Source of the DNA: an uncultured Bacteriovoracaceae bacterium | GTDB taxonomy: Bacteria > Bdellovibrionota > Bacteriovoracia > Bacteriovoracales > Bacteriovoracaceae | Reading direction: 5' to 3' | DNA length: 50,019 nt | Assembly (NCBI GenBank): GCA_938034385.1 | Contig: CALHLC010000046.1 | Coordinates: forward strand, 1-50,019 | Shown: one piece after another, positions 37,764 through 47,568 of the stretch | How positions within the stretch are numbered: position 1 is the first letter of the stretch | Layout: every line of letters begins with the position of its first letter | Program-made: the position numbers and the translations under genes | The notes under the pieces: generated by a model | Databases searched by the model: none | Told to the model about the DNA's origin: nothing | What the model saw: only the letters and a program-made list of their open reading frames with translations

Positions 37764-38738
37764 ATGAGGATTTTACTAGTTTTAACAATGATGCTTTTTA
37801 GTGTTGGATGTAAAAAAGAAACAAACTTAACTGCTGTGCAAGCAAAGACTCCAACTACAAAATTAACGGAGCCATCTTGGGCCAAGCTTATCCATATAGA
37901 TAGTTTGATTCCAGGATCTTATATTAGTAATGATAAAATGCAGGTCATCATCATTGCTGAGGATAAAAAAACAATAAGAAATGTAACTTTTAGAAAGGTT
38001 GAAGAATCTATCGATTATTCAAAGCCTATTACAAAGGTTAAACATACTGACGGAACCTATGAATTAAAAGTTATTGCTCCAGGAAAAGTAACACTTGTTC
38101 CTAGCTTAGGAGCTGAGCCAATTGATTCAGATGAATGTAGAGAGATCATTGCCAATGCTTATGAAGAATTCAATCAAAAATTTGGTGGTAACCAATTTGT
38201 TTTTCAGTCCAACGGAAGCTTTGTAACTTCTCATAGTAAAGCACTAGTAATAGATGAAAGTGAGCTCACAGAAGGTTCTGTAGGAGCCGTATTTGGAAAC
38301 TCTCACATTGCTAGAGTTTATCAAAAATCTGATAAGAATATAAATATTGATGAAGTCATTAGCTTTTATGGTTCAACTGAACTTCCACATATTTGTGCAA
38401 GTCTTGATCCTGAACAAGACTTAGATTCTGATGGGTTTAAAGGTGCAGAAGATAAGTGTCCTAAAATCAAAGGATCTGCTCCTGAAGGATGCCCATTTGA
38501 ACTAAGTGGATTTGTAAATAATTGTGATGGTCAAGCTGAATTAGCTAGTAAGTTAGAGAAGAGATTTAAAAACAAAGTTGTTAAGGTTTGTGAGTCAGAA
38601 GGTAATTTTAAAGAAGTAGAATTTGTTTGTCATAAAGATTTAGATAATAATACCTTAGAGTGGGTACATCAATCAGTTGATGGAGTAGATCTCAGTGAGT
38701 TTGCTAATAAAACGTGTATTCATATAGATTCAATCTAG
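37764..38738 (+). CDS. Lipoprotein with thrombospondin-3-like calcium motif
   Basis: 324 aa. MRILLVLTMMLFSVGC gives lipobox Cys16. Residues 20-215 form a domain I do not recognise. Then DPEQDLDSDGFKGAEDKCP and APEGCPF make a single thrombospondin type 3/OmpA-linker calcium-binding repeat. The C-terminal 80 residues carry more cysteines (NNCDGQAEL, KVCESEG, VCHKDL, KTCIHID). AGGAA precedes the ATG. The last 9 bp overlap bufC on the opposite strand. A role with the bufferin genes is not indicated. Confidence 0.65.
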   Translation: MRILLVLTMMLFSVGCKKETNLTAVQAKTPTTKLTEPSWAKLIHIDSLIPGSYISNDKMQVIIIAEDKKTIRNVTFRKVEESIDYSKPITKVKHTDGTYELKVIAPGKVTLVPSLGAEPIDSDECREIIANAYEEFNQKFGGNQFVFQSNGSFVTSHSKALVIDESELTEGSVGAVFGNSHIARVYQKSDKNINIDEVISFYGSTELPHICASLDPEQDLDSDGFKGAEDKCPKIKGSAPEGCPFELSGFVNNCDGQAELASKLEKRFKNKVVKVCESEGNFKEVEFVCHKDLDNNTLEWVHQSVDGVDLSEFANKTCIHIDSI

Positions 38739-39020
38739 GCTTAACGAACTTATAAAACTTAAAAAATCAGCCCCATAATCATTAAAGTTTGGATTCCTTG
38801 AGGGATTTTTCTCGATATATAGTTTTGCGACATATCGAAAGTTATTTTCACCTAAGTCTTCAAAAACTTCTGGATTATTATTTTGTAGAGATTTTATATG
38901 TGAGAAGAGATAATTATTTTTATAAGCAATGAGGCCCCTATAGTATTTATGGTCTTGAATGTGTGATCTCTTTGAGGATCGAATTTCCTCTAAAAACTTC
39001 TCGATAATTGATTTATTCAC
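38730..39020 (-). CDS. bufC: BufC-like DUF2063 protein, N-terminal domain only
   Basis: Partner of the DUF692 enzyme in bufferin/methanobactin-type peptide modification. The sequence YRGLIAYKNNYLFSHIKSLQ, EDLGENNFRYVAKLYIEKNP and NDYGADFLSFISSLSL is a clear DUF2063 N-terminal domain, which binds and presents the precursor peptide. At 96 aa it stops directly after that domain, whereas family members are often about 180-260 aa. The GTG at 39020 overlaps the bufB TAA by 8 nt; a TTG at 39044 is possible. No continuation is visible in other frames beyond the stop, so the truncation is not a simple frameshift. Confidence 0.8.
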   Translation of the reverse strand: MNKSIIEKFLEEIRSSKRSHIQDHKYYRGLIAYKNNYLFSHIKSLQNNNPEVFEDLGENNFRYVAKLYIEKNPSRNPNFNDYGADFLSFISSLSLD

Positions 39021-39828
39021 ACATAACGCCTTTGATTTTTTCAACCTCTATAAGAAGAGATGAAAGGTCTACTAGATTAGAATCTTGTTCGAAAATAGTA
39101 GGGATGTTTTTTAAATTGCTTTTTTCAGAGGTTAAAAGTGATAGAACATCTTCTCTTAGAGCTCCTCCATGTGTATCTATCCAATGTCCATCAAAGCTCT
39201 CAGCACTAGCTAAATGAATTTCTTTAACATACTGAAAGTTTAATTGTTTTAAATAATCAATTGATTTGAGTCCTAGGTTTTTTTCATTAACCCAAATATT
39301 ATTAATGTCTAATAGACTAAAACAACCAGTTGTTTTACATATTTGATTAATAAATTGAACCTCACTAAAGGTAGACTCCTCAAATTCCACATAAGAAGAG
39401 AGATTTTCAACTAAAATTGAAGCTTTTAAGTAATCTTGAATTTTATTTATTCTAGAGGTAATGGAGAGTAGACTTTCTTTATTCATAGGGAAGGGAAGGA
39501 GGTCATGATAGTGAATTTTTTGATGGGCCTGTAAGCATAAATGATCTGAGAGATGGAAAGGTTGATATTTGTTTTTTAAATTATTTACCTTCTTCAAATA
39601 ATCATAATTAATTGAATCTATTCCAGCAATATTCATTCCTACGCAATGAAAAGATAGAGGGTAGTCTTGTCTTAGTTGTTCTAGCTTTTTATGATGAGAG
39701 CCATCATCAAACCAATTTTCGACTATGATTTCTAAGAAATCAACATTAGGCTTTTGACTTAAAAAGTCATCAATAAACTCAAGACGAAGGTTACAACCAA
39801 CGCCTTGAATAGTGTTAGTATGATTCAC
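39013..39828 (-). CDS. bufB: DUF692 multinuclear iron enzyme for bufferin maturation
   Basis: TIM-barrel oxidase of the MbnB/BufB/TglH family that modifies cysteines of a ribosomal peptide, as far as is known forming thiooxazole- or oxazolone-type groups. Metal ligands are visible in order: FHCVGMNIAG (His), FHLSDHLC (His), LVENLSSY (Glu/Asn), LLDINNIW (Asp/Asn), EIHLASAE (His) followed by GHWIDTHGG (Asp, His) and FEQDSNL (Glu). 271 aa is normal. The GTG start shares one base with the bufA TAG (TAGTG), and the stop overlaps bufC, so all three genes are translationally linked. Confidence 0.9.
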   Translation of the reverse strand: MNHTNTIQGVGCNLRLEFIDDFLSQKPNVDFLEIIVENWFDDGSHHKKLEQLRQDYPLSFHCVGMNIAGIDSINYDYLKKVNNLKNKYQPFHLSDHLCLQAHQKIHYHDLLPFPMNKESLLSITSRINKIQDYLKASILVENLSSYVEFEESTFSEVQFINQICKTTGCFSLLDINNIWVNEKNLGLKSIDYLKQLNFQYVKEIHLASAESFDGHWIDTHGGALREDVLSLLTSEKSNLKNIPTIFEQDSNLVDLSSLLIEVEKIKGVMCE

Positions 39829-40097
39829 TAGATTTTTTTAGTCTTATAGATTTTTGCTCCAGCGATCTTTAAACAAACACCTTTAGGAACGTAAACCCAT
39901 TCATTAGGATCGTTATCTTTTAGAGCTTTTCCACCACAGTCATGTCCATTTGCTCCGCAATCATTCATCCCTTTCTTAGCAATACCTTTACACTTTTCTA
40001 AAGTATCACCTTTCTTGGCCCACTTTGGTGCAGCCATAGAATTTAGGCTCGAAATTAGTAGTCCTAGAAAAGTACTCGCATAAATTAACTTTCTCAT
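39828..40097 (-). CDS. bufA: Bufferin precursor peptide (DUF2282)
   Basis: 89-residue secreted RiPP precursor. MRKLIYASTFLGLLISS with cleavage near SMAA is a Sec signal peptide. The mature part has four cysteines (EKCKGIAKKGMNDCG, GHDCGGKA, KGVCLKI), and DNDPNEWVYVPKG is the hallmark DUF2282 block. In known bufferins modified cysteines chelate copper in the periplasm. I start at the ATG at 40097, 5-6 nt after AAAGGA; an ATG at 40124 would precede it by 9 residues without a site. A likely sigma-F-type promoter lies at 40146-40172. It is divergent from the sigma-factor operon. Confidence 0.9.
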   Translation of the reverse strand: MRKLIYASTFLGLLISSLNSMAAPKWAKKGDTLEKCKGIAKKGMNDCGANGHDCGGKALKDNDPNEWVYVPKGVCLKIAGAKIYKTKKI

Positions 40098-40145
40098 TTT
40101 TATTCCTTTTTTGATAAAGTCCATCTTTATCGTGATATAAACTTA

Positions 40146-40172
40146 TTAGTCACTTTGAATAAATTTGTTACA
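40146..40172 (-). promoter_or_regulatory. Probable ECF sigma-F-type promoter of bufABC (one mismatch)
   Basis: Read on the minus strand: TGTAACA, 16 nt, CTAA. The -35 box is identical to the two plus-strand sites and the spacing is the same. The -10 element differs by one base from CGAA. The -10 box lies about 50 bp upstream of the bufA ATG, which fits a short leader with its AAAGGA site. Confidence 0.55.
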
Positions 40173-40221
40173 AAATTGATTTGTAAGAAGATTGTCAGGA
40201 AAAAAATATTTTAAGAAAATG

Positions 40222-40248
40222 TGTAACATTTCAGAAGGATTTGACGAA
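40222..40248 (+). promoter_or_regulatory. Probable autoregulated ECF sigma-F-type promoter
   Basis: TGTAACA (40222-40228), 16 nt, CGAA (40245-40248). This GTAAC-N16-CGAA arrangement is the promoter form recognised by Caulobacter sigma-F-type ECF factors as I know it. It lies about 80 bp upstream of the sigma-factor ATG, so the operon would activate itself. Confidence 0.7.
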
Positions 40249-40327
40249 GTGAAAACCTTGATTATTTAGCTCTGCCATGTTCTCTTTATATATCCATCAA
40301 TTACTTGAAAATATTGGAAAGAGGAAT

Positions 40328-40855
40328 ATGAAAAATACGAACTTAAAAGATCTTATAATAAAGACACTTGCAGGTGATCAGCTGGCATGTGAGCAATTTC
40401 TTCTGAGCTTAATACCTAAAATTAATGCTCGAATTTATAATAAAATTCAAAGAAAGGAAGACCATGAAGATGTTAAGCAAAATGCTCTAATGGCAATATA
40501 TAAGTCCTTAAAGACTTTTGATGTCAGTAAAGACTTAAGTCCATGGGTGAATGCTATTATTGACTTTAAAATTGCTGATTATTATAGAAAGAAAAATAGA
40601 ACTAAAGATAAAGAAGTAAATATTGATAGTGAACATGTAACAATTCCTGGAGTTGAGGCGAATATAGATTTTGAGATGATTGATATGATAGAGCAATTAC
40701 CAGAAAAGTTTATTGAGCCTATAGTTTTAACTAAAATTAAAGGTCATTCCACAAAAGAAGCTGCTCAAATATTAAATATCAAAGAAAATGCTCTACGGAC
40801 TAGAGTCTCTCGAGGAATACAAAAACTCGAAGTACTTATGAAGGAGTTAAAATGA
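40328..40855 (+). CDS. sigF: ECF RNA polymerase sigma factor, SigF-like
   Basis: 175 aa. Region 2 (about residues 15-80) includes HEDVKQNALMAIYKSLKTFD and WVNAIIDFKIADYYRKK, the -10 recognition helix. Region 4 (about 115-170) has LPEKFIEPIVLTKIKGHSTKEAAQIL followed by ENALRTRVSRGIQKL, the -35-binding helix-turn-helix. (These stretches are cited in parts: LPEKFIEPIVLTKI, GHSTKEAAQIL.) The ATG at 40328 follows AAAGAGG. An anti-sigma factor of the DUF1109 type comes next with a 4-nt overlap, as in sigF-nrsF loci that control bufferin genes in Caulobacter. That pairing supports the assignment. Confidence 0.85.
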   Translation: MKNTNLKDLIIKTLAGDQLACEQFLLSLIPKINARIYNKIQRKEDHEDVKQNALMAIYKSLKTFDVSKDLSPWVNAIIDFKIADYYRKKNRTKDKEVNIDSEHVTIPGVEANIDFEMIDMIEQLPEKFIEPIVLTKIKGHSTKEAAQILNIKENALRTRVSRGIQKLEVLMKELK

Positions 40856-41493
40856 AGGATCAAGATTTTATTAAATCGCTGGCCAAGAATCACTCTAAGG
40901 TCGCAAGTTTACCAAATGCCAATAGGCGAGCATTTTTATTTGGAGTCTTATCATTTATAGGAGTTTTATTTTTAATCAATTTAGGTGGAGGATTACGATC
41001 AATATCAGAAGACTATGGGTTTAACCTTCAGACCTTAGAGCTCTTATCTACACTTATTGCATTTTTCTCTCTATTAATAATTTCTTTTAATTCATCTATT
41101 CCTGGAAATTCAATTCATTTACCAATTAAGGTTTTCTATATTTGCTCATTAGTTTTTCTTACGAGTCTAGGGATTAGATATTTCTTTATTCCTAATAATT
41201 ATGCCCCAATGTTAAATAGGGTGTTTCATTGCTCAAAAGAAGTACTCTTTTATGCTGGTGCAATTCAATTATTTCTATACTGGAGAATTAGTAAAGGTGT
41301 TTTAATAAACTTAAAATCTACAGTTATCTTTACTACTCTTGCTGCAGCTATTTTACCGATGATGTTGATGGCCATTGGGTGTTGTATCACTCCAAAACAT
41401 ATTTGGACTTCTCACTTCATTCCTCTTGCGTCTTATACTTTAATTGTTGCATGTGCCCAATATTACTTTTTAAGGAAAAATTATGAATATTAA
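40852..41493 (+). CDS. nrsF: NrsF-like (DUF1109) membrane anti-sigma factor
   Basis: 213 aa with about six transmembrane helices after a cytoplasmic N-terminus (DFIKSLAKNHSKVASLP) that should hold the sigma factor. Cysteines at 98, 127, 177, 178 and 201 include a pair about 50 residues apart (Cys127 in FHCSKEV, Cys177/178 in IGCCITPKHIW). In Caulobacter NrsF, as I recall, two conserved cysteines with similar separation sense metal or thiol stress. The ATG overlaps the sigma factor stop (ATGA). The next gene begins 11 nt before its end. Confidence 0.8.
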   Translation: MKDQDFIKSLAKNHSKVASLPNANRRAFLFGVLSFIGVLFLINLGGGLRSISEDYGFNLQTLELLSTLIAFFSLLIISFNSSIPGNSIHLPIKVFYICSLVFLTSLGIRYFFIPNNYAPMLNRVFHCSKEVLFYAGAIQLFLYWRISKGVLINLKSTVIFTTLAAAILPMMLMAIGCCITPKHIWTSHFIPLASYTLIVACAQYYFLRKNYEY

Positions 41494-42175
41494 AAAAGTA
41501 AGTATTTTAAGTCTCGTTGCTATTGCAATATTTTTTCTTTACCAATCAGGATATACAAAATATTTGAGTCTTGATTATATTAAGGAGAACTTAGATTCTT
41601 TCAAAGATTATTATTCTCAAAATACTTTAAAGACGATCTTGATTTTTTCTCTTGTTTATATTGGAGCAACTGTTTTATTTCCGGGAGGAGCAACTGTTTT
41701 AACATTGACTTCAGGAGCATTGTTTGGTGTGATACAAGGAATTATTATTGTTTCATTTGCTAGTACCATTGGAGCGACTGTTGCCTTCTTATTATCTAGG
41801 CTAGTTTTTAGAGATTCTATTCAAAGTAAATATGGCGATAAATTAAAAGCAATCAATGATGGTATAAAAAAAGATGGAGCCAGTTATCTCTTAACTCTTA
41901 GGTTGCAACCAGTATTTCCGTTTTTTCTAGTAAATTTATTAATGGGGTTAACTCCAATAAAAACTTCTATTTACTATATTGTTAGTCAAATAGGGATGCT
42001 ACCTGGAACAGCCGTTTATGTTAACGCTGGATCAGAACTAGGGAAGATAAATAGTTTAAAAGATATTATGTCTCCGACTTTAATAGGATCATTTATACTT
42101 CTTGCTTGTTTTCCAATCTTAGTAAAGTTTTTAATGAAATCTTTTGGAAAAGCGAGTGTCGTTAATGAGCAATAG
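41483..42175 (+). CDS. TVP38/TMEM64 (VTT-domain) membrane protein
   Basis: 230 aa inner-membrane protein of the DedA/VTT superfamily. ATVLFPGGATVLTLTSGALFG is the conserved re-entrant loop, and LTLRLQPVFPFFLVNLLMGL is the second conserved block with the functional arginine; it is followed by MLPGTAVYVNAGSELG. VTT proteins are lipid scramblases or transporters. The arrangement with a MerA-like oxidoreductase and DUF547 recurs in other genomes. AAGGA precedes the ATG. It overlaps both neighbours, so it is co-translated with nrsF and the reductase. Confidence 0.87.
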   Translation: MNIKKVSILSLVAIAIFFLYQSGYTKYLSLDYIKENLDSFKDYYSQNTLKTILIFSLVYIGATVLFPGGATVLTLTSGALFGVIQGIIIVSFASTIGATVAFLLSRLVFRDSIQSKYGDKLKAINDGIKKDGASYLLTLRLQPVFPFFLVNLLMGLTPIKTSIYYIVSQIGMLPGTAVYVNAGSELGKINSLKDIMSPTLIGSFILLACFPILVKFLMKSFGKASVVNEQ

Positions 42176-43625
42176 AAAAAAACCAAAGAGCTTTGATTAT
42201 AATATGATCAGTATTGGAGCTGGAGCCGGTGGTTTGGTAACCAGTTATATAGGTGCTGCTGTCAAAGCAAAAGTTGCTCTTATTGAAAAACATAAAATGG
42301 GGGGAGATTGTCTTAATACAGGTTGCGTTCCTTCCAAAGCTATTTTAAAAAGTGCCAAAATTGCAAAGACTATCAGACAAGCCAGTAAGTATGGACTTAA
42401 AGATCTTGAAGTAAAGCTTGATTTTGATGAAGTCATGAAAAGAGTTCATAAAGTAATTGAAAAGATAGAACCACATGATTCGGTAGAAAGATACACGAAT
42501 CTAGGTGTTGATTGTATACAAGGAGAAGCAAAAATCCTTTCACCTTGGGAAGTTGAAGTAAACGGAAAGGTTCTGACCACTAAAAATATAACTATAGCAA
42601 CTGGTGCAAGACCATTTGTTCCACCTATTACTGGTCTTAATGACGTTCCATATTTAATCTCCGATACGCTTTGGGAATTAAAAGAGTTACCTAAAAAATT
42701 CTTAATTGTAGGTGGTGGCCCAATTGGCTTAGAAATGGCTCAATCATTTCAAAACCTTGGAAGTGAAGTGACAGTTGTAGAGAGAGCACCAAGGATTATG
42801 GCCAAGGAAGATGAAGATGTGGCCCAAGAGGTAACAAAGCACTTAGAAAAAGATGGAATAAATATTTTAACTTCTACTAATTTAGAAAGATTTGAAAAAA
42901 AAGATAGTAAATTCTTTGCTCATATTTCCAAGAATGGACAAACTGAGCTTATTGAATTTGATAAAGTGTTATTAGCTATTGGGAGAAGACCCAATATTAG
43001 TGGCTTTGGATTGGAAGAGTTAGGCGTAGAGCTTAATAAAAACGGAACAATTAAGGTTGATCAATATTTAAGAACTACAAAGTATAAAAATATTTTTGCT
43101 TGTGGAGATGTTGCTGGTCCTTATCAATTGACTCATATGGCAGCTCATCAAGCTTGGTTTTGCGCCGTAAATGGTCTTTTTGGAACATTTAAAAAGTTCA
43201 AGGTCCATTATAAAGCAACTCCTTGGGCCACCTACACAGACCCTGAAGTTGCTACTGTTGGTCATACAGAGTTAAGTGCAGCACAAGAGGGAGTTGAGTT
43301 TGATGTGACTAAATACGAATTGGACGATCTGGATAGAGCTATTGCAGAAGATGCAGATTATGGGTTTGTAAAAGTCTTAACTCAAAAAGGTAAAGATAAA
43401 ATTATAGGAGCAACGATTGTTGGTCCTCAAGCCAGTACTATGATTATAGAGTTTGTCACGGCCATAAAATATAATTTGGGTTTAAATAAAATTTTAGGTA
43501 CCATCCATGCATATCCAAGCTTTGGTGAAGGAAATAAGTATGCAGCTGGAGAATGGAAAAGATCACAGATAAAAAAGTGGCAAATGGATTTATTACAAAA
43601 GTTTCATAAATGGAGAAGATCATGA
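42165..43625 (+). CDS. MerA-like FAD-dependent pyridine nucleotide-disulfide oxidoreductase
   Basis: 486 aa, class I flavin disulfide reductase. The FAD loop is IGAGAGGLVTS. The redox pair is in GGDCLNTGCVPSKA (C-x4-C). The NAD(P) loop is VGGGPIGLEMAQ. FACGDVAGPYQLTHMAAHQA is the FAD ribityl block, and HAYPSFGEG has the catalytic histidine. It lacks both the N-terminal HMA domain and the C-terminal Cys-Cys of true mercuric reductase, so it is unlikely to reduce Hg2+ by the known route; the real substrate is unknown. The ATG at 42165 overlaps the VTT gene by 11 nt. A 43622 ATG starts the next gene within its stop. Confidence 0.85.
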   Translation: MSNRKKPKSFDYNMISIGAGAGGLVTSYIGAAVKAKVALIEKHKMGGDCLNTGCVPSKAILKSAKIAKTIRQASKYGLKDLEVKLDFDEVMKRVHKVIEKIEPHDSVERYTNLGVDCIQGEAKILSPWEVEVNGKVLTTKNITIATGARPFVPPITGLNDVPYLISDTLWELKELPKKFLIVGGGPIGLEMAQSFQNLGSEVTVVERAPRIMAKEDEDVAQEVTKHLEKDGINILTSTNLERFEKKDSKFFAHISKNGQTELIEFDKVLLAIGRRPNISGFGLEELGVELNKNGTIKVDQYLRTTKYKNIFACGDVAGPYQLTHMAAHQAWFCAVNGLFGTFKKFKVHYKATPWATYTDPEVATVGHTELSAAQEGVEFDVTKYELDDLDRAIAEDADYGFVKVLTQKGKDKIIGATIVGPQASTMIIEFVTAIKYNLGLNKILGTIHAYPSFGEGNKYAAGEWKRSQIKKWQMDLLQKFHKWRRS

Positions 43626-44428
43626 ATATTTTTAAATTAGTTACACTTATTAGTTTCTTTGGATGCCTAGGGGCTCAAAGCTCAGGAAACATGAATGCTA
43701 AAATAGCACACGTTCAAACTGCTAATAGCTTTGATCATAATCATACTCTGTTAACAAAAGTGTTAAAAAAGTTTTTAGTTCCTGGAGAGATTAGTACTTT
43801 GGTTAAGTATCAAGAATTAAAAGAAGATAGAGCAGAATTTGATACTTATTTAAAAGGCTTAGAGAGCTTATCGAAAAGCGAATTTTCAAATTTTAATCAA
43901 AATCAAAAGCTTAGTTTTTGGATCAACGCATATAATGCTTATACATTAAAACTTATTATTGATAATTATCCGCTAGAATCAATTAAAGATCTTGGAAGTT
44001 TATTAAGCTCTCCATGGAAGAAGAAGTTTATCAAGCTATTTGATAAGGTCATGACTTTAGATGATATAGAACATGGAACTATTAGAAAGAAGTTTAAAGA
44101 GCCAAGGATTCACTTTGCTGTGAATTGTGCATCAATGGGATGTCCTTCACTAGCAGATGAAGCTTTCACGGAGTCTAATCTTGAAAGCCTTCTTCAAAAA
44201 ATGTCATTGAAGTTTATAAATAATGACAAGAAAAATAGTTATAATATCCAAGAAAAAACAATGAGACTTTCAAAGATTTTCCTGTGGTACGGAGGAGATT
44301 TTAAAGAGAAATTTGGATCATATAAGAAATTTATTCAAACTCTAAAGCCGGGCGTGAAAGATCTGGCAAAATTTCGAGTAAAGTGGAATAAATATGGATG
44401 GAAGCTTAATGATTCGCCGAAGAAGTGA
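43622..44428 (+). CDS. DUF547 lipoprotein A
   Basis: 268 aa. MNIFKLVTLISFFGC gives a lipobox with Cys15. The DUF547 core includes SFWINAYNAYTLKLIIDNYP, DDIEHGTIRKKF and RIHFAVNCASMGCPSLADEAF, with the family's invariant Cys near the H-F-A block. DUF547 proteins have a papain-like arrangement of Cys and His by prediction, and no activity is established. The ATG shares bases with the reductase stop (ATGA). This gene ends the first sigma-F-type operon. About 100 bp follow before the second promoter's gene. Confidence 0.82.
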   Translation: MNIFKLVTLISFFGCLGAQSSGNMNAKIAHVQTANSFDHNHTLLTKVLKKFLVPGEISTLVKYQELKEDRAEFDTYLKGLESLSKSEFSNFNQNQKLSFWINAYNAYTLKLIIDNYPLESIKDLGSLLSSPWKKKFIKLFDKVMTLDDIEHGTIRKKFKEPRIHFAVNCASMGCPSLADEAFTESNLESLLQKMSLKFINNDKKNSYNIQEKTMRLSKIFLWYGGDFKEKFGSYKKFIQTLKPGVKDLAKFRVKWNKYGWKLNDSPKK

Positions 44429-44465
44429 TCCGAAGCGTTAAGACGAATAAGTAAATCTTTTCAAC

Positions 44466-44492
44466 TGTAACAATTGTTAATAATTTTACGAA
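44466..44492 (+). promoter_or_regulatory. Second probable ECF sigma-F-type promoter
   Basis: TGTAACA (44466-44472), 16 nt, CGAA (44489-44492). This is the same sequence and spacing as at 40222-40248. The -10 box is 40 bp upstream of the ATG of the second DUF547 lipoprotein gene and lies in the 104-bp gap after the first operon. It would start a second, separately regulated unit. Confidence 0.7.
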
Positions 44493-44532
44493 TATAAGGG
44501 TATAAAGTGGGGGCACTGAATACAGGAGTATC

Positions 44533-45432
44533 ATGAAAATTATTTTTGCAGTATTTGTTTTTTTAGCAGCTTGTTCTGGCTATCAAGATCAACCTAAAGA
44601 CTTTGGAGCAATTCAAGCTCAGGGTGCATCTGCTCCTCCTCCAAGAGAGGTTCCAAGGACAGATACAGACCTAGATCCAGTAGGGTTTGATGAAACTTTT
44701 CAAGAATTCTTAGATAAGTATGTCGTTATCTTACCAGGTAAGTACGACACACGTATTAAGTATAAAGCATACTCCAATGATCTTAAGAAAAAAGATGCAC
44801 AAACTCTTTCCTTGAGAACTGAAATCATAAATTATTTTGGATCAGACACTTATGAAGGATTAAATCTTGATGAGAAAATTGCATTTATAACAAATGCATA
44901 TAATTTCTTTGTTATTGATCTTATTGCTCGTAAATATCCAATAAAACAAATTTTTGAAGCCACGCCTGGTGAAGAAGTTTTTAAAGTAAACTTTATTAAT
45001 CTTGCAGGACAGAATATGTCTTTAGATTATTTAGAGAAGACAAAACTTGCAAAAGTTTTAAAAACAAAACTTGGGAATCCAAATGGCAACCTTACTGATG
45101 CAAGGTTACACTTCGCTCTAATTTGTGGAGCAAAAGGCTGTCCTATTTTACTAGATAAGGTTTATAAAGCTGAGACTCTTGAAGAGCAGTTAACAGATAT
45201 TACTAAAAAATCTTTTGCATTACCACGAATTATTCAAGAAAAAAGCAGTCACTATAGTTTAATAAAATTGTTTGAATGGTACAAAGATGACTTTAACAAT
45301 CATAGTTCAAGCGATCTACCTTCTGTAAGTAACCATAAAGATTTCATTGCACGTTACTTTCCTGGAACTTTCAATAGTGCAAAAATCTTGAAAGTAGATA
45401 TTGAATATAATTGGGATCTAAACCAGATTTAA
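44533..45432 (+). CDS. DUF547 lipoprotein B
   Basis: 299 aa. MKIIFAVFVFLAAC has a lipobox with Cys14, then a Pro/Ser/Asp-rich spacer to about residue 45. The DUF547 domain contains KIAFITNAYNFFVIDLI, MSLDYLEKTKL, RLHFALICGAKGCPILLDKVY with the conserved Cys. It is a paralogue of the gene ending at 44428. GGAGT precedes the ATG. The promoter TGTAACA-N16-CGAA is directly upstream. The beta-barrel gene begins 11 nt after its stop. Confidence 0.82.
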   Translation: MKIIFAVFVFLAACSGYQDQPKDFGAIQAQGASAPPPREVPRTDTDLDPVGFDETFQEFLDKYVVILPGKYDTRIKYKAYSNDLKKKDAQTLSLRTEIINYFGSDTYEGLNLDEKIAFITNAYNFFVIDLIARKYPIKQIFEATPGEEVFKVNFINLAGQNMSLDYLEKTKLAKVLKTKLGNPNGNLTDARLHFALICGAKGCPILLDKVYKAETLEEQLTDITKKSFALPRIIQEKSSHYSLIKLFEWYKDDFNNHSSSDLPSVSNHKDFIARYFPGTFNSAKILKVDIEYNWDLNQI

Positions 45433-45443
45433 GAAGGATAAAA

Positions 45444-46634
45444 ATGAAATATATAGTAATAACTTTTTTAATTTTAGGATATTCAGTAAACAGCTTTTCT
45501 ACTTCTATTAGCGAGATGAAGTTACCTAAGTGGGTTAAAGGGATGTCTTTTTCGATAGGCCCTAAAACGGACTCAAACATCTTTCAAATGAATGAGAAAA
45601 TCTTAAGTGATCAATTACAAGATCCAAATGATGGGATCTTAAAGACCAGTCTGGGGCTTAAAACAAAAATGCTTTTTAAGCCGATGAAGAAATATATTTT
45701 GATAAATACACTTAAAGCTGATGGAGTTATGCGCTACTTTAGTAATGTGAGTGATGATTATATTCGAGATGAATATTCAATTTCAAACAGTCTTGTTGGG
45801 GTAGTACCTATAAGTAAAAAGTGGCAAGTAGGTCATTTACTTTATCTAGGAGCAAATCAGTCACAATCTTTTGAGTATAGAAATGAAAGTGGAGTTAAAG
45901 AAGTGAGCTCTATTGAAAATGATCATTTAAATTATTCAGGAACAATGTTTATATCTTCTAAACTTACTAAGAACTGGAAAGTAAGCTTGGATCTAGGTGC
46001 TAGCTTATTAGATTTCAGTGAAGATTATTCGAGCTATGATGTTGTCGCCGGAGAAGAAAATGATTCATTACAAAGAAATGTAAAGTTAAACAATCAGTTT
46101 AAAATAGGGAAGATAGCGACTTTAGAAACTCCTACCTCATATTCTAAGTCATTTTTTAAAAACAGATCAGCTCTTGATAGTGATGGTTTCTTTGCTTCGT
46201 CAGGTTCTGTCCCAAGAGATATCATTGAGAAGTTTTCTTTCTTACCAAAGTTAACTATTTCTACATCTTTAGGAAGCTTCTCTTCTTCTTATGGGATTGT
46301 GAATCAAAAGGATTTAGTTTTTGGTGGTAGAAGTTATGATGGAACAAAATTGGCACTAGGGTATTCCTTGAACTTTTTAACAAATCATAATTTAACTCTT
46401 GATTATGGATTAACAAGAAATGATTATTTAAGTTCTCTGGACTTCAGTAATGATAAAAGAGATATAAGAAAAGATAAAATGACAACGATCTCATTGGACT
46501 ATAAATTATATAAAGTACTAGATAGTTCATTTGATTTTAATCTAAACTATACTTATCTTGATTCTGAGAATGGATCTTATGGTGGGAGCTTTGATTCTAA
46601 TATAATTAGTTCCAAGCTGACTTATAATTTATAA
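45444..46634 (+). CDS. Outer-membrane beta-barrel in the DUF547 operon
   Basis: 396 aa with signal peptide (MKYIVITFLILGYSVNSFS). Almost all of the mature part is amphipathic strands with aromatic girdles, e.g. KWQVGHLLYLGANQS, NWKVSLDLGASLLDFSE, LALGYSLNFL, NLTLDYGLTRNDYLS. It ends IISSKLTYNL. The strand count suggests a 16-18-strand porin-like barrel; no family recognised. AAGGA lies before the ATG at 45444. In-frame ATG at 45411 would add residues before the signal peptide. Proposed to act with the DUF547 lipoprotein at the outer membrane (inference). Confidence 0.68.
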   Translation: MKYIVITFLILGYSVNSFSTSISEMKLPKWVKGMSFSIGPKTDSNIFQMNEKILSDQLQDPNDGILKTSLGLKTKMLFKPMKKYILINTLKADGVMRYFSNVSDDYIRDEYSISNSLVGVVPISKKWQVGHLLYLGANQSQSFEYRNESGVKEVSSIENDHLNYSGTMFISSKLTKNWKVSLDLGASLLDFSEDYSSYDVVAGEENDSLQRNVKLNNQFKIGKIATLETPTSYSKSFFKNRSALDSDGFFASSGSVPRDIIEKFSFLPKLTISTSLGSFSSSYGIVNQKDLVFGGRSYDGTKLALGYSLNFLTNHNLTLDYGLTRNDYLSSLDFSNDKRDIRKDKMTTISLDYKLYKVLDSSFDFNLNYTYLDSENGSYGGSFDSNIISSKLTYNL

Positions 46635-46643
46635 AGGAAAACG

Positions 46644-46871
46644 ATGAAAAATGTAATTTTATTATTAGCCCTTCTTACTACTTTTCAAATCTCATATGCT
46701 TCTGGTGGCGGTGGCGGCGGAGGAGCAAGTGACATTGACTTATCCGAAGATCTTGATGAAGCAGTAAATGAAGCAAAAGCTGAAGCTCAAGAACAAATAG
46801 AAGAAGAAGAAAAAAAAATAGTTAAGAAGAAAAAGAAAGTAGAAGAAGCTCTAGACGACGAAGCGTTTTAG
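46644..46871 (+). CDS. Small exported Gly-rich/charged protein
   Basis: 75 aa. Signal peptide MKNVILLLALLTTFQISYA, then an SGGGGGGGAS run followed by an acidic-to-basic helix (SEDLDEAVNEAKAEAQEQI, then KKIVKKKKKVEEAL) that could form a coiled coil. No cysteine, so it is not a second bufferin. No family recognised. AAGGAAAAC precedes the ATG. It is 9 nt after the barrel and 4 nt before the SDR gene, so it belongs to the same operon. Confidence 0.6.
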   Translation: MKNVILLLALLTTFQISYASGGGGGGGASDIDLSEDLDEAVNEAKAEAQEQIEEEEKKIVKKKKKVEEALDDEAF

Positions 46872-46875
46872 ATAA

Positions 46876-47568
46876 ATGAGTAGTAAAACTAGGACTATCC
46901 TTGTCACCGGTGCTAACCGTGGAATAGGAAAGGCCATTGCTACAGGACTTGCAACTTCTAACCAGAAAGATCTTATTCTTTTAGGATGTAGAGATCTCAA
47001 AATGGGTAATGAGATTGCAAGTAGTTTTAAAAATATCCAGGCCTTGCATTTAGATCTATCTTCTATGAGCGGACTAGATAAATGCTTGCAAGAGATTTTG
47101 ACTCTATATCCTCAAATTGATGTATTAGTTAATAATGCCGGGATTTTATATGAAGATAGTGCTCTTAGTATAAGTGATGCTAGGTTTGATGAAGTGTTAC
47201 AAATTAACCTCTTAGCGGCTTATAAACTTATTAAGGTTCTAGCTCCAAACATGATTAAAAATTCATATGGAAAAATTGTAAATATGTCCTCAGGTTGGGG
47301 ACAGTTTGAAGATGGATTGACTGGACCATTTTCTTATTCTTTATCAAAAGCGGCACTTAATGCATTAACTCTCACTCTTTCAAAAGAGCTCCCTGCCTCT
47401 ATAGAAATAAATTCGATGTGTCCTGGATGGGTTCATACTAGAATGGGAGGATCTGAAGCACCAAGAACTCCTGAAGAGGGTGCTAAAACTGCTATCTGGC
47501 TTATAAATAGAGACAAACCAAGTCATTCGGGACGCTTTTACCGCGATGAGCAAGAGATTAGTTGGTAA
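46876..47568 (+). CDS. Classical short-chain dehydrogenase/reductase
   Basis: 230 aa, cytoplasmic NAD(P)-dependent oxidoreductase. TGANRGIGKAI (residues 11-21) is the cofactor loop, NNAG (about 87-90) and SSGWGQF ... YSLSKAALNA carry the Ser-Tyr-Lys triad, and CPGWVHTRMGG is the usual substrate lid. It resembles the carbonyl-reductase-like SDR group with an arginine after TGAN-R. Its substrate is unknown. It ends the second putative sigma-F-type operon, 4 nt after the Gly-rich peptide gene. Confidence 0.87.
   Translation: MSSKTRTILVTGANRGIGKAIATGLATSNQKDLILLGCRDLKMGNEIASSFKNIQALHLDLSSMSGLDKCLQEILTLYPQIDVLVNNAGILYEDSALSISDARFDEVLQINLLAAYKLIKVLAPNMIKNSYGKIVNMSSGWGQFEDGLTGPFSYSLSKAALNALTLTLSKELPASIEINSMCPGWVHTRMGGSEAPRTPEEGAKTAIWLINRDKPSHSGRFYRDEQEISW

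Follow-up and report, generated by a model that had tools for sequence, protein, structure and literature searches.

The closest described counterpart of the locus studied here is the SigF-NrsF pair of Caulobacter (ECF16), in which chromium stress frees the extracytoplasmic function (ECF) sigma factor SigF from the anti-sigma factor NrsF, two cysteines matter, and the mapped SigF promoter is GTAACC-N16-CGAA (PMC3511200). Brucella BcrS-AbcS also joins an ECF16 sigma factor to a DUF1109 anti-sigma factor with conserved cysteines and to oxidant stress (PMC8315932). In Corynebacterium glutamicum SigH-RshA, the promoter PrshA lies within the ECF gene sigH, is read by that sigma factor and drives the anti-sigma gene alone (PMC3489674). 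Furthermore, Buf1 bufferin clusters show bufABC near sigma and NrsF genes (PMC12452194). Here we describe a related locus in a DNA stretch of 50,019 nucleotides (the window) on contig C46 of an uncultured Bacteriovoracaceae bacterium (assembly GCA_938034385.1, 2.67 Mb, 99% complete), whose closest named relatives are Bacteriovoracaceae metagenome-assembled genomes of the Bdellovibrionota. Its sigF-like gene contains, inside the coding sequence, a perfect SigF-type box (TGTAACA-N16-CGAA, positions 40636-40662), a fourth site absent from the list given in the original prediction for this DNA.

The window locus is like that of Caulobacter in its ECF sigma factor, its six-transmembrane (six-TM), two-cysteine anti-sigma factor, a neighbouring DUF2282-DUF692-DUF2063 operon and N16-CGAA promoters. 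It differs from it in a sigma operon extended by genes for a VTT-domain protein, a reductase and a DUF547 protein, in a second, boxed operon encoding DUF547 and beta-barrel proteins, and in the box inside the sigma gene; a term search of the Caulobacter paper found no mention of an internal promoter (PMC3511200). The boxes before sigF and DUF547b, GTAACA-N16-CGAA, closely resemble the mapped Caulobacter promoter and differ from its GTAACC in the last -35 base. Unlike the window, Brucella BcrS-AbcS acts on MsrPQ-type genes and the gene for a Met-rich protein, among other targets, and its known inducer is hypochlorous acid (PMC8315932). The C. glutamicum pair belongs to other sigma and anti-sigma families and PrshA was shown in one species (PMC3489674), whereas the window-type site is conserved over a sigma clade of two phyla and would also feed effector genes. 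The terms VTT, DUF547 and Bdellovibrio are absent from the Buf1 paper according to a term search (PMC12452194).

Alignment of sigma genes shows GT[A/C]ACA-N16-CG[A/T]A at the same position of the linker between sigma2 and sigma4, and 14 of the 45 NrsF-partnered sigma genes surveyed carry this internal motif. The spacer was fixed at 16 in this search; when spacers of 15 and 17 were allowed in the first set, every linker box was still N16, the spacing of the mapped Caulobacter promoter (PMC3511200). All carriers fall within one clade of 17 sequences (support 94/93) that spans families f1, f6 and f10, and they keep a constant reading frame, V-T-x5-[A/S/T]-[N/K/Y]. The linker VT-x5-[AST]-N could be a protein feature of the clade and the promoter-like DNA a by-product of its codons, as the invariance of V104 and T105 in the clade would allow. 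We consider this very improbable, because 300 synonymous recodings with native codon usage predict 0.23 genes with the motif (maximum 2) against the 14 seen, and because Ala, Ser and Thr replace one another while the codon is always GCG, TCG or ACG, although G-ending codons make up 3-23% of usage there. In L177, moreover, Asn is replaced by Tyr and the DNA still reads CGTA, the -10 form of many upstream SigF-type boxes.

Closer and more distant comparisons add to this pattern. Between the window and its genus relative G065 the 27 internal nucleotides are identical, and codons for the same residue are identical in 9 of 9 cases within the motif vs 95 of 135 elsewhere in the gene. Two Nitrospinota genomes, out of sample and searched by protein profile, hold one sigF-nrsF pair each, both with GTCACA-N16-CGAA at the linker. 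Among six proteobacterial plasmid SigF genes, none has a CG[A/T]A box inside the coding sequence; upstream of four of them stands GTAACC-N16-CGAA. At the level of sequence, these comparisons demonstrate constraint on the DNA of the internal box.

Regarding its role, the box is most likely a cognate promoter that drives the anti-sigma gene and the genes downstream. Sequence by itself reveals a binding site and not initiation, so that the box could instead bind the sigma holoenzyme as a decoy or roadblock with no promoter for nrsF. This we judge improbable: the box is co-directional with nrsF, a sigma-dependent promoter inside sigH is proven to drive rshA alone in C. glutamicum (PMC3489674), and genes with an internal box mostly lack one upstream, as if one had been swapped for the other to drive nrsF. 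Thus, 12 of the 45 genes have an internal box only, 20 an upstream box only, two have both (the window and G065) and 11 have neither (Fisher p=0.003). On balance, we favor an interpretation in which, within a SigF clade of two phyla, the feedback promoter moved from upstream into the linker DNA of sigF; the inhibitor, together with the envelope effectors in this genus, would rise and the sigma factor would not, and the linker protein would be partly shaped by the promoter encoded in it.

From the boxes, their conservation and the conservation of the operons, we infer that the locus is probably an NrsF-controlled ECF (SigF/ECF16-like) envelope-stress regulon of four units, including an internal-promoter unit with negative feedback. 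At rest, the membrane anti-sigma factor NrsF would retain the sigma factor; by analogy with Caulobacter, oxidants or thiophilic metals would hit the two conserved cysteines of NrsF and free it. The freed sigma factor would then read the GTAACA-N16-CGAA boxes and transcribe bufABC (unit 1), sigF-nrsF-VTT-reductase-DUF547a (unit 2), DUF547b-barrel-Gly75-SDR (unit 3) and, from the box within sigF, nrsF and the downstream envelope genes (unit 4). The internal promoter would thereby yield more NrsF, VTT protein, reductase and DUF547a without extra sigma factor, acting as a brake. Copper or thiol stress may be the inducer, which is consistent with Caulobacter SigF/NrsF (PMC3511200).

Several points weigh against this interpretation. 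Half of the internal boxes are GTCACA instead of GTAACA, the invariant VT means that protein constraint on the linker coexists with DNA constraint, and the sequences of the clade are related, so that codon tests overstate independence. In addition, the bufA box is imperfect (CTAA), and no recognisable box precedes sigF in the genus members G032 and G076; therefore, the sigma factor there must be expressed from another promoter. If the interpretation is correct, one sigma/anti-sigma system would offer two natural circuit designs for direct comparison, one in which an upstream promoter raises sigma factor and inhibitor and one in which an internal promoter raises inhibitor and effectors alone, and it would be a clear case of promoter DNA kept within coding sequence across phyla. 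Bufferins would be tied to a membrane reductase/DUF547 envelope module and to arsenosugar-type islands, and the roles of DUF547 and VTT-reductase proteins could then be tested by exposing cells to metals, metalloids and oxidants.

The coordinates of the genes and boxes are collected in the table. Every gene named in the original prediction is present among the window open reading frames (ORFs), which were also searched with Pfam and NCBIfam, with overlapping stop/start junctions from the sigma gene through DUF547a, and a TGTAACA-N16-CNAA box was found, as predicted, before all three units: that of bufA ends in CTAA and the other two in CGAA.

Table. Genes and SigF-type boxes of the window locus
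Feature	Position	Strand	Basis and remarks
bufC-like	38730..39032	-	DUF2063 domain alone, ~100 amino acids (aa); Pfam PF09836 1.9e-13
bufB, MNIO (DUF692) maturase	39013..39828	-	PF05114 2e-78
bufA, DUF2282 four-Cys precursor, signal peptide	39828..40097	-	PF10048 3.2e-19
Box TGTAACA-N16-CTAA before bufA	40146..40172	-	CGAA box at equivalent position of G065 bufA
Box TGTAACA-N16-CGAA before sigF	40222..40248	+	Conserved in G065
sigF, SigF-like ECF sigma factor	40328..40855	+	Pfam sigma70 r2 and r4_2; NrsF-like partner
Intragenic box TGTAACA-N16-CGAA, sigma2-sigma4 linker of sigF	40636..40662	+	Proposed promoter for nrsF and downstream genes
nrsF, NrsF/DUF1109-like six-TM anti-sigma factor	40852..41493	+	Alignment; PF06532 via relatives
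VTT-domain membrane protein	41483..42175	+	PF09335 1.3e-22
Flavin adenine dinucleotide (FAD) pyridine-nucleotide disulfide oxidoreductase	42144..43625	+	PF07992 7e-69
DUF547a	43610..44428	+	PF04784 2.5e-26; NCASxGCP motif
Box TGTAACA-N16-CGAA before DUF547b operon	44466..44492	+	Conserved in 4/4 genus genomes
DUF547b lipoprotein	44533..45432	+	PF04784 1.2e-17; lipobox LAAC
Predicted outer-membrane beta-barrel	45411..46634	+	Likely start 45441; without Pfam match
Short Gly-rich exported protein, 75 aa (Gly75)	46644..46871	+	Linked to DUF547b and barrel in L031, L089 and L155
Short-chain dehydrogenase/reductase (SDR)-family oxidoreductase	46876..47568	+	NCBIfam SDR matches

Conservation was examined in four genomes of the genus: the window genome (G000) and G032, G065 and G076, which were found via sigma similarity. 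All four keep the order sigF-nrsF-VTT, DUF547a, and all four have the DUF547b and barrel genes behind a conserved TGTAACA-N16-CGAA, which supports the predicted extension of SigF-type control to the VTT, reductase, DUF547 and barrel genes. The relaxed pattern TGTAACA-N15..17-CNAA has five matches in the window vs 0.34 expected from shuffling. Exact TGTAACA-N16-CGAA occurs 5, 6, 2 and 3 times in the four genus genomes, where the reversed pattern occurs 0, 1, 1 and 0 times, and most of the exact boxes precede genes of this set. Matches on C50 of G000 and C28 of G065 were rejected as chance, lying within or across genes of the opposite strand.

The regulon had been described as self-contained, which does not hold, as box-bearing genes are found at other loci. 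In G000 and G065 a box precedes a redoxin/thioredoxin-like gene beside a MerC gene; in G032 a box also precedes a gene for a Gly75 homologue, and in G076 it lies beside a related neighbour gene of 343 aa. At L044 7738-8783 (C22 of G000) the order is MerC-domain gene, box, redoxin-like gene, and it is kept in G065 (redoxin 62% identity). Other genera that were checked show boxes at bufA and within sigF, with an additional one in G012 before an MsrA-like gene, but none at VTT/DUF547 genes. This suggests that the sigma factor controls the VTT/DUF547 module in this genus only. The G012 box (L233 1501-2619) stands immediately before the gene, encoding an MsrA-like methionine sulfoxide reductase, and recalls known ECF16 regulons. 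By phylogenetic footprint the regulon is real, yet neither self-contained nor anchored by the bufferins.

A fixed link to bufferins, also part of the original prediction, is not borne out: the locus lacks buf genes in three of the four genus genomes, and genome-wide searches found no bufB in G032 or G076. These two genomes have the reductase and, in the buf position, MAPEG and DUF2177 genes divergent from sigF; G065 carries bufAB on a separate contig. These absences, and the MAPEG and DUF2177 genes that stand there instead, would fit bufferin genes that are chance neighbours, functionally unrelated to the VTT/reductase/DUF547 module. We nevertheless find this unlikely, given that the distant bufAB of G065 has a perfect box of the same kind upstream, and given the phylum survey of 369 genomes: bufB is present in 120 and the reductase in 107, and 9 of the 35 genomes holding both, from several families, have bufB and a VTT-reductase within 20 kb, vs 0.63 expected from genome size (8 of 34 without the window genome). 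The proximity above expectation supports a functional tie of bufferins to the VTT-reductase/DUF547 set beyond the window, though synteny is loose.

The linked neighbourhoods contain genes for fused VTT-reductase, DUF547, radical SAM/DUF3641, methyltransferase, transporter and glycosyltransferase proteins, the radical SAM/DUF3641 and methyltransferase assignments having been checked by Pfam. We take some of these genes to be ArsS- and ArsM-like (arsenosugar-type) and PiT-like. At L155 1-16001, L151, L153, L154 and L156, from several Bdellovibrionota families, bufferin operons lie 3-17 kb from ArsS/ArsM, PiT and glycosyltransferase genes. The fused VTT-pyridine nucleotide disulfide oxidoreductase near ArsS/ArsM is similar to the window module in its homologous reductase and VTT domain and its often adjacent DUF547; it differs in that this genus has separate VTT and reductase genes in a sigma operon, at a locus without ArsS/ArsM. 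Literature searches returned nothing on point for VTT/DUF547/arsenosugar operons or for bufferins with arsenic. Some linked neighbourhoods hold an ECF sigma factor and a short anti-sigma-like protein. A Cys/His anti-sigma-like protein of 80-85 aa follows an ECF sigma gene at L060 2364-2621, L063 6166-6408 and L156; such genes stand beside bufferin or VTT-reductase genes, one that was tested has no Pfam match, and they are possibly a second regulator type of these islands.

The likelier start of sigF is 40328, with a Shine-Dalgarno sequence. SigF has sigma regions 2 and 4 only and a six-TM anti-sigma gene next to it, as is characteristic of ECF16/SigF-NrsF, and the tree places it among NrsF-partnered sigma factors, alongside the six proteobacterial plasmid SigF-like sequences. 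PF06532 (NrsF), sought directly in the anti-sigma protein and in the window genome, gave no match, and homology to NrsF is therefore drawn from relatives, six of the nine aligned ones matching this profile. C127 and C177 are invariant in the nine aligned sequences and correspond to the NrsF cysteine pair, which Caulobacter NrsF needs (PMC3511200). No solved relative of the anti-sigma factor was found in a PDB sequence search.

The bufferin operon has the Buf1 gene set: a Cys-containing DUF2282 precursor, an MNIO maturase and a DUF2063 partner with the BufC N-terminal domain only. The bufA ORF opens at 40124, and the start at 40097, preceded by a Shine-Dalgarno sequence, is likelier. BufB keeps the putative metal ligands and matches NCBIfam MNIO_BufB at 2.8e-79, under the curated cut-off. 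The BufC of the window (38730-39032) is a DUF2063 domain of ~100 aa, vs ~250-260 aa in relatives.

The reductase shows a CLNTGC redox pair, matches MerA and dihydrolipoamide dehydrogenase structures in the PDB by sequence, and is fused to VTT in most related loci of the fusion survey. A Tyr takes the catalytic-His position of dihydrolipoamide dehydrogenases (HxYP). Its score lies below the curated MerA cut-off (389 bits vs 454; best subfamily PRK06370), and an RclA/HypR type was rejected, with scores far under the cut-offs. In G065 (L031 7301-8906) the reductase gene is absent between VTT and DUF547a, and a search of that genome found no close homologue elsewhere. In G076 (L033 8910-15289) the sigF-nrsF-VTT-reductase-DUF547a block stands twice in tandem, apparently near-identical, as a recent duplication or an assembly artefact.

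Alignment of the DUF547 proteins shows invariant Cys, His and Glu. The AlphaFold2 model of DUF547a (43610-44428) is confident, with a predicted local distance difference test (pLDDT) of 88.6; despite this, a fold search against the PDB gave nothing below E=0.001, and a PDB sequence search found no solved DUF547 relative. The barrel was modeled with low confidence (pLDDT 63), mainly as long strands. Among the genus relatives, G065 alone has the SDR gene at the locus.

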